Under the pieces are notes generated by a model, which was not told the origin of the DNA, searched no databases, and was given only the letters and a program-made list of their open reading frames with translations. Source: a bacterium (GTDB lineage Bacteria; Hydrothermota; UBA3072; B12-G15). From it: DNA of 14,599 bases. Location: positions 1 through 14,599 of the forward strand of contig QNDZ01000022.1 in assembly GCA_003646055.1 (NCBI GenBank), read 5' to 3'. Below are positions 12,076-12,750 of this stretch, one piece after another (position 1 is the stretch's first letter; each line of letters starts with the position of its first letter). The position numbers and the translations under genes are program-made.

Positions 12076-12276
12076 TCACCTCAACGGGTCATACCCTCCC
12101 GGATGGAAGGGGTTGCATTTTAATATCCTCTTTGTGCTCAGGAAGGCACCCTTAAAAAACCCATACTTCCTGAATGCCTGGAGGGAGTATTCAGAGCAGG
12201 TGGGATAGAATCTACACTGTCCTGGCAGATACGGAGATATGAACCTCTGATAAAACCTGATTAGATAAACCATCAT
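12076..12276 (-). CDS. yidD: Membrane protein insertion efficiency factor YidD
   Basis: A 66-residue YidD protein, which sits at the inner membrane by an amphipathic N-terminal helix and aids YidC-dependent insertion. Family signatures are [24 protein letters not shown] with its paired cysteines, and the C-terminal [12 protein letters not shown] place the start at ATG 12276, where it overlaps the rnpA stop as ATGA, the pattern at most junctions of this operon. A GTG at 12285 with AGGGAG seven bases upstream would add three residues (MAG) and is a fair alternative. It lies between rnpA and yidC as in most bacteria. Confidence 0.93.
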
Positions 12277-12616
12277 CCCTGCCACAACCCCGCTCCCTGA
12301 GTGATTTTCATGAACTCCTCCAGAAGTTCCCTGAACTCTGCTTCCTGTGCCTTTTTCTTTATGTAAAATAAGTAAGTTCCCTTTTTTAAAAACCGTTTGT
12401 TCCTCCTGTAAATCTCTCTTATCCTTCTCCTTACCTTGTTTCTCTTAACCCCTCCACGAAACCCTTTTTGAACCCATATCCCTAATTTTCTCTCATCGGA
12501 GGGGATATAGTAAATATCAAAAAAAAACCTCTATGGGCATGTCCATTTTTAAGGACATCAAGATACGCCTTTCTTCCGTGAAGCCTCTCATTGCGAGGGA
12601 GCGCCTCTGGCCTCAA
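12273..12616 (-). CDS. rnpA: Ribonuclease P protein component, with -1 frame change at a T9 run
   Basis: RnpA is the protein subunit that helps RNase P RNA cleave tRNA 5' leaders. The protein is recognisable only across two frames. From the TTG at 12616, which overlaps the rpmH stop as TTGA, the first frame reads 33 codons including [20 protein letters not shown], meets nine T (complement of 12519-12527) and stops at TAG 12484-12482. The -1 frame continues the protein for 81 residues, [17 protein letters not shown] onward, with the family's basic RNR-like helix [15 protein letters not shown], and ends at TGA 12275. The joined product is about 114 residues, normal for RnpA. A GTG at 12634 inside rpmH is an alternative start. 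The split may be real recoding, RNA polymerase slippage or a homopolymer error. Confidence 0.8.
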
Positions 12617-12750
12617 CTCACTGATATTCTCCACCTTCCCTTTGCCCTTCTCCTCTTTAAGACCTTCCTTCCTGCCTTTGTTGACATCCTCTTTCTAAAG
12701 CCGTGAGTTCTCCTCCTCCTCAGAACATGAGGCTGGTAGGTTCTCTTCAT
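12613..12750 (-). CDS. rpmH: Large ribosomal subunit protein bL34
   Basis: A 45-residue, strongly basic ribosomal protein of the 50S subunit. It begins [20 protein letters not shown] and continues with the typical [19 protein letters not shown] stretch; length and sequence are normal for bL34. Its ATG at 12750 is preceded by AAAAAAGGAGGAGA, a very strong ribosome-binding site fitting a highly expressed gene. It is the first gene of the rpmH-rnpA-yidD-yidC-jag-mnmE-queA operon, and its TGA overlaps the rnpA TTG. dnaA, often found upstream of rpmH, is replaced here by a divergent lipoprotein gene. Confidence 0.98.

Follow-up and report, generated by a model that had tools for sequence, protein, structure and literature searches.

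The window analysed here, a stretch of 14,599 nucleotides with a GC content of 42%, is contig 22 of a 1.87 Mb genome assembly in 277 contigs that is 80.6% complete. On its minus strand stand four genes that we take from their translations to be rpmH, rnpA, yidD and yidC, in that order and followed by more genes. The features on which the argument depends are listed below in the order in which the minus strand is read.

12613..12750, minus strand: rpmH (ribosomal protein L34), the upstream partner of rnpA, from its translation
12482..12616, minus strand: rnpA frame A, the N-terminal part, from TTG 12616-12614 to TAG 12484-12482, 44 aa
12539..12558, minus strand: small hairpin AUGUCC/GGACAU, 11 nt upstream of the T run (z -1.99; 9 of 200 shuffles equally good)
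12273..12530, minus strand: rnpA frame B (-1), the C-terminal RnpA core with the RNR motif, PF00825 positions 28-106
12519..12527, minus strand: T9 run, the junction of frames A and B
12518..12524, minus strand: U UUU UUG heptamer (T TTT TTG), a candidate -1 ribosomal slip site that is in phase with frame A
12474..12510, minus strand: possible hairpin CUAUAUCCC/GGGAUAUGG, 7 nt past the slip site, weakly supported
12076..12285, minus strand: presumably a yidD-like gene, directly after rnpA and overlapping its end

The original prediction that rnpA lies in two frames meeting at a run of nine T is confirmed on the minus strand (T9 at 12527-12519), as are the reading of the tract as GGT TTT TTT TTG in frame A, with its in-phase U UUU UUG (T TTT TTG, 12524-12518), and the 44-residue fragment expected when nothing slips, which becomes 50 residues when counted from an alternative frame A start at GTG 12634. 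A single -1 shift joins 33 and 81 residues into 114 from the TTG start (120 from GTG), the length that had been foreseen. The foreseen junction FFFD is right for an extra U in the mRNA, which gives G-F-F-F-D, and wrong for both tRNAs slipping together, which gives G-F-F-L-D. Frame B is open from just past TAG 12533-12531 to TGA 12275-12273, and inspection of its start codons found no ATG, GTG or TTG ahead of ATG 12311, so that a separate start of the C-terminal half at a regular codon was rejected. The broader claim that this half has no usable start of its own is true of the regular codons only, as the rare start candidates in frame B include ATT 12515 and ATC 12506. At the other end of the gene, the TGA stop of rpmH and the TTG start of rnpA share bases in the TTGA at 12613-12616, an overlap that suggests translational coupling.

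The frame break in related sequences

Searches of 5.8 billion proteins were run with the C-terminal half of RnpA, the N-terminal half and the two halves joined by X; they depend on five-residue words in common and on set limits of length, and they returned in total four clusters with 26 member sequences, one contig being listed per cluster. The C-half query brought up just P0001 (80 aa, 97%) and P0002 (77 aa, 85%), whose listed starts lie just past the run; both are consistent with the break, and start-site or contig-edge effects may also account for them. The N-half query found P0005 and P0006, each of 67 aa and with 10 and 11 member sequences, respectively. Both proceed in frame A beyond the junction as far as the window's next frame-A stop (RETR*), so that frame A has 67 residues in them versus 50 in the window when counted from the same start. 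The X-joined query gave the same four proteins (6 candidates scored, 4 under threshold). No intact RnpA relative of the lineage was returned by any of the three queries, of which the C-half and joined ones could return full-length proteins and the N-half one could not. Thus, continuous-frame relatives, the case against a real frame change named at the outset, were absent from the protein matches.

A nearly unique joint DNA (4 sequences) can be written for the P0005 tail and the frame B of P0001, with the first two frame B residues taken from the window, P0001 beginning with M where I was used. Hence the tails of P0005 and P0006 correspond to an RnpA C-terminal half read in frame A. Direct evidence of the break comes from three sequences, namely the window and, at the protein level, P0005 and P0006. 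The comparison with related rnpA genes that had been proposed therefore bears out the frame change in these two relatives; as for the T run itself, the junction codons allowed for P0005 by the protein data are TTY TTY [T/C]TG, for which an uninterrupted run is not required.

That the break recurs in further sequences of the database argues against a homopolymer error and favours recoding, and the frame break is probably real rather than an assembly slip. A one-base sequencing or assembly error in the homopolymer would suit a fragmented assembly of 277 contigs and 80.6% completeness, homopolymers being the usual sites of such errors, but we regard it as very unlikely, since the break is also present in database sequences distinct from the window, and no intact one was found. 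Moreover, the window has 11 further A/T runs of at least seven bases, 10 of them inside long ORFs that are all unbroken, and the unbroken frames around four other A9 runs of the genome are likewise contrary to error. The 1.87 Mb genome has A/T runs of at least nine bases at 11 distinct places, and the frame change has to fall within about 50 bases; thus a T9 at the frame change is beyond chance.

Further relatives were sought by alignment. A genus-level RnpA alignment against genome contigs gave 35 pattern stretches and no relative, and a search with an order-level alignment brought up 6 relatives at 33-40% identity, from two candidate division WOR-3, one TA06, two Stahlbacteria and one Zixiibacteriota assembly. 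Viral contigs yielded 142 pattern stretches and no relative, and the congener G001 (75% complete) had no match for rnpA, rpmH or yidC.

The pattern of differences indicates which frame is kept. P0005 and P0006 differ at 1 of 38 residues up to the junction and at 10 of 29 past it in frame A (Fisher P 0.0006). In frame B, P0006 has at least 3 differences from P0001, compared with a mean of 6.7 over 3000 simulations that had an equal number of frame-A changes (P 0.014; BLOSUM P 0.002), this being one pair of relatives. Since the changes in P0006 leave frame B near the RnpA of P0001, frame B is the frame kept past the run. It is also RnpA-like in both P0001 (97%) and P0002 (85%), with an intact KRNKVRRR core. 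The two marks of conserved recoding, a frame change that diverged relatives retain and selection on the new frame, are found here at the protein level, with three sequences as direct evidence.

The two halves fit together as one RnpA. Frame B alone matches the PF00825 family profile at 55.1 bits (cut-off 22.3) over positions 28-106 and contains the RnpA core KRNKVRR. The N-terminal half on its own is only weakly recognised as RnpA: neither that of the window nor P0005 has a Pfam match, P0006 reaches 12.8 bits against Pfam RnpA (E 0.13), and the hhalign probability of the N-half is 2.3. A model of the relatives' RnpA was built from the 35 of 38 loci that passed a motif filter (L018, L019 and L031 dropped; 34 distinct sequences). 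Against it, the X-joined halves score 110.8 bits, up from 90.4 without the N-half (+20.4), and none of 500 shuffled N-halves reached the joined score (shuffle maximum 95.4 bits). The joined halves align without net gap, 114 residues to 114 model positions, which is the length expected from either one extra base or a single -1 slip. We infer that full-length RnpA would be made as a single chain.

A split RnpA is another way to read the locus, with the C-terminal part started at a rare codon (ATT 12515 or ATC 12506) and working together with the N-terminal fragment. The listed starts of P0001 and P0002 are the residues matching these two codons, and an AGAGG lies 12 nt upstream of ATT 12515. We nevertheless think it highly improbable, as the cut would fall inside the RnpA fold and the frame-A tails are poorly conserved and of unequal length, 50 versus 67 residues from the same start, which makes the N-terminal fragment look unlike a shaped protein. 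It is equally hard to credit phase variation, in which cells would alternate between T9 and other run lengths in their DNA: a run this long is considered easily mutated (PMC1088944), but turning off a needed gene would be costly, and no in-frame version was present among the protein matches.

RNase P across the phylum

A PF00825 match was found in 128 of the 147 genomes of the phylum, and among these matches the one in the present genome (G000) is the sole one noticed to be broken inside a contig. In G069, G084 and G128 the match begins late in the profile at a contig end (checked for G069, by coordinates for G084 and G128) and is uninformative. The match in G057 runs from profile position 23 in a 115-residue open frame, that in G133 ends at position 71 in a 104-residue open frame, and those in G034, G038 and G058 each contain one TGA.

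Two families, f10 (G015, G040, G044, G048 and G146) and f27 (G054, G071, G072 and G073), with loci L070-L086, have no PF00825 match and no match to RF00010, the class A RNase P RNA model, in any of their 9 genomes. The RNA search used the class A model alone, which also detected the B. subtilis control. All 9 genomes have a match to PF08745, which we take to be the protein-only RNase P family (HARP). In addition, rpmH was found in 8 of the 9, and at all 8 loci a YidD-like frame comes next with no RnpA between. RnpA had been called universally needed in bacteria, and these two families contradict that claim. It looks as if a protein-only enzyme replaced RNase P in f10 and f27, perhaps twice.

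This replacement gives some room to the idea that the window's gene is a decaying pseudogene or that RnpA is dispensable in its host, an idea that we consider extremely unlikely. RNase P RNA is kept in the present genome (226.8 bits), and PF08745 was not found in this assembly, which lacks a fifth of the genome at 80.6% completeness; both points speak against a dispensable RnpA. Against a pseudogene stand the RnpA-like frame B of P0001 and P0002, with its intact core, and the phylum members missing rnpA, which have nothing of it between rpmH and yidD. Thus, judged from gene content, rnpA loss looks clean where it occurred, and the window's rnpA looks kept.

Probable slippage by polymerase or ribosome

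Three options had been put forward for the T run: a ribosomal frameshift, RNA polymerase slippage and an error. The shared break makes error less credible and recoding more so; of the two kinds of slippage, that by the polymerase is a slightly better fit, and we rank it first and ribosomal slippage second. On balance, we favour a reading in which the break is real and shared by the lineage, which probably belongs to phylum WOR-3, the gene is functional and RNA polymerase slipping on T9 restores the frame. Slippage would add an extra U to part of the rnpA transcripts, and these would be read unbroken into the 114-residue RnpA with the junction G-F-F-F-D, while faithful transcripts would give a fragment, of 44-50 residues here and 67 in relatives.

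We infer a slip by the polymerase. Polymerase slippage in vivo is described as efficient at nine A or T (PMC5009743), and single-base insertions are reported to predominate in A/T runs and to increase with run length (PMC5574713). Since a single-base insertion is the direction that rnpA needs, this supports polymerase slippage. Selection against runs is reported to be evident from nine bases, in a large proportion of genomes (PMC1088944). The sign expected of a slippage gene, an A/T run of at least nine bases at the frame change, is present as T9 12527-12519, and the run is longer than the heptamer requires, which we count for polymerase slippage. With the window's codon usage, the chance of GGT TTT TTT TTG given G-F-F-L is 0.013, and rnpA is the sole case among the 11 run places with a recognised protein split at the run. 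A scan of the minus strand found no terminator-like hairpin at the T run. On the other side, four other A9 runs (L042, L044, L047 and L051, all with A on the sense strand) are found inside long frames that have no break; hence A9 runs are tolerated in ordinary genes, which counts against the slippage reading of T9.

Some other runs in the genome have features of their own. At L051, near position 1500 (G000:C210:1758-1766), the sense-strand A9 lies in the overlap of frames that we take to be RuvX-like and MltG-like; the second frame opens at the A9, and slippage could fuse both. L049 (1458-2742; G000:C165:2157-2166) has an A10 near the start of a 428-codon open frame, presumably resembling a sugar nucleotidyltransferase, with no ATG before the A10 and a TTG present. 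The T15 of L052 (1500-1515; G000:C224) is at an apparent contig end and is probably where assembly stopped.

A programmed -1 ribosomal frameshift is the main rival, but it seems to us doubtful. Here the tRNAs on U UUU UUG would slip back by one base, perhaps aided by downstream RNA structure, and leave the junction G-F-F-L-D. The slippery heptamer T TTT TTG (12524-12518) is in phase, and in-frame copies of it number 0 in the 2625 codons of seven other ORFs of the window. Compared with synonymous recodings, the downstream stretch folds somewhat better over 45 nt (z -2.05, matched by 4% of them) and 90 nt (z -2.2, matched by 2.1%) but is unremarkable over 60 nt (z -1.44, matched by 8.8%), these values being uncorrected for the use of three lengths. 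A 9-bp stem can start 7 nt past the slip site, but an equally long stem occurs in 23% of synonymous recodings, and the stem is not what minimum-free-energy folding of 88 nt gives. Comparison with dinucleotide shuffles yields z values of -1.64 over 88 nt, -1.65 over 131 nt and +0.66 over 38 nt. The stem-loop was rejected as proof of ribosomal frameshifting, being too weak against both recodings and shuffles. An AGAGG lies 3 nt from the heptamer, and by the spacing that dnaX-like stimulators keep this is too near. In E. coli, 39 heptamer motifs of this kind (61%) without and 55 (86%) with IS911 stimulators are reported to exceed twice the background, but U_UUG is among four tetramers given as just 1.8- to 3.6-fold above background, a figure for the tetramer and not for the heptamer (PMC4066793).

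If slippage at T9 is obligatory, it could act as a gain control, by which the state of the polymerase or the ribosome, reflecting for example UTP supply or growth temperature, would set RnpA, and thus tRNA processing, well below the L34 made from the same message; this extension is speculative and, in our judgement, rather unlikely.

Comparison with known systems

If slippage does restore the frame, a core RNase P subunit would be made only in this way, and the lineage would offer a direct test of slippage tolerated versus slippage used. The case is also a warning that genes of this sort may be annotated as absent or broken, the searched database having given just two kinds of pieces. The +1 frameshift of prfB resembles rnpA in that a shift is required for an essential product, whereas direction, site and gene differ. 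Another comparison is the heptamer-type -1 frameshifting known from E. coli dnaX and from IS elements. With it rnpA shares an in-phase X XXY YYZ (PMC4066793), but rnpA has U UUU UUG, no well-supported stimulator and a T run longer than needed.

Closer to the favoured reading are cases of polymerase slippage. In Thermus thermophilus dnaX, slippage is likewise described at nine identical A/T bases within a coding gene (PMC5009743, PMC1088944), but the longer dnaX product needs no frame change and it is the shorter one that arises by slippage, whereas rnpA would need slippage for its full length. In Citrobacter rodentium tssM1, polymerase slippage at A11 is reported to restore a full-length protein from an interrupted gene; this differs in that the run is of A and not T, the gene serves secretion, and both forms and their ratio are needed (PMC4256274).

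The frameshifted genes of Blochmannia and Buchnera are also similar. They are needed genes, such as dnaX, dnaG and pth, in which a poly-A/T run carries an indel; some breaks are common to several species, the genes are otherwise undecayed, and rescue by slippage is thought likely (PMC3017870). Other genes are affected in those symbionts, however, and their genomes are AT-extreme and abound in long runs, with 114-153 coding polyA tracts of at least nine bases in three Blochmannia genomes (PMC3017870), compared with 11 places in the present genome and a window GC of 42%. With so few long runs, a mutational overload of the symbiont type is a poor explanation here. Judged by titles and abstract openings, within a scope outside which most subscription journals fall, none of the papers found deals with a frame change in rnpA, and rnpA is unmentioned in PMC3711429 and in the first 300,000 characters of PMC5009743. 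In summary, frame breaks located at runs, with possible rescue by slippage, are already known from other systems, and what stands out here is the gene, rnpA, and its setting in a genome with few long runs.
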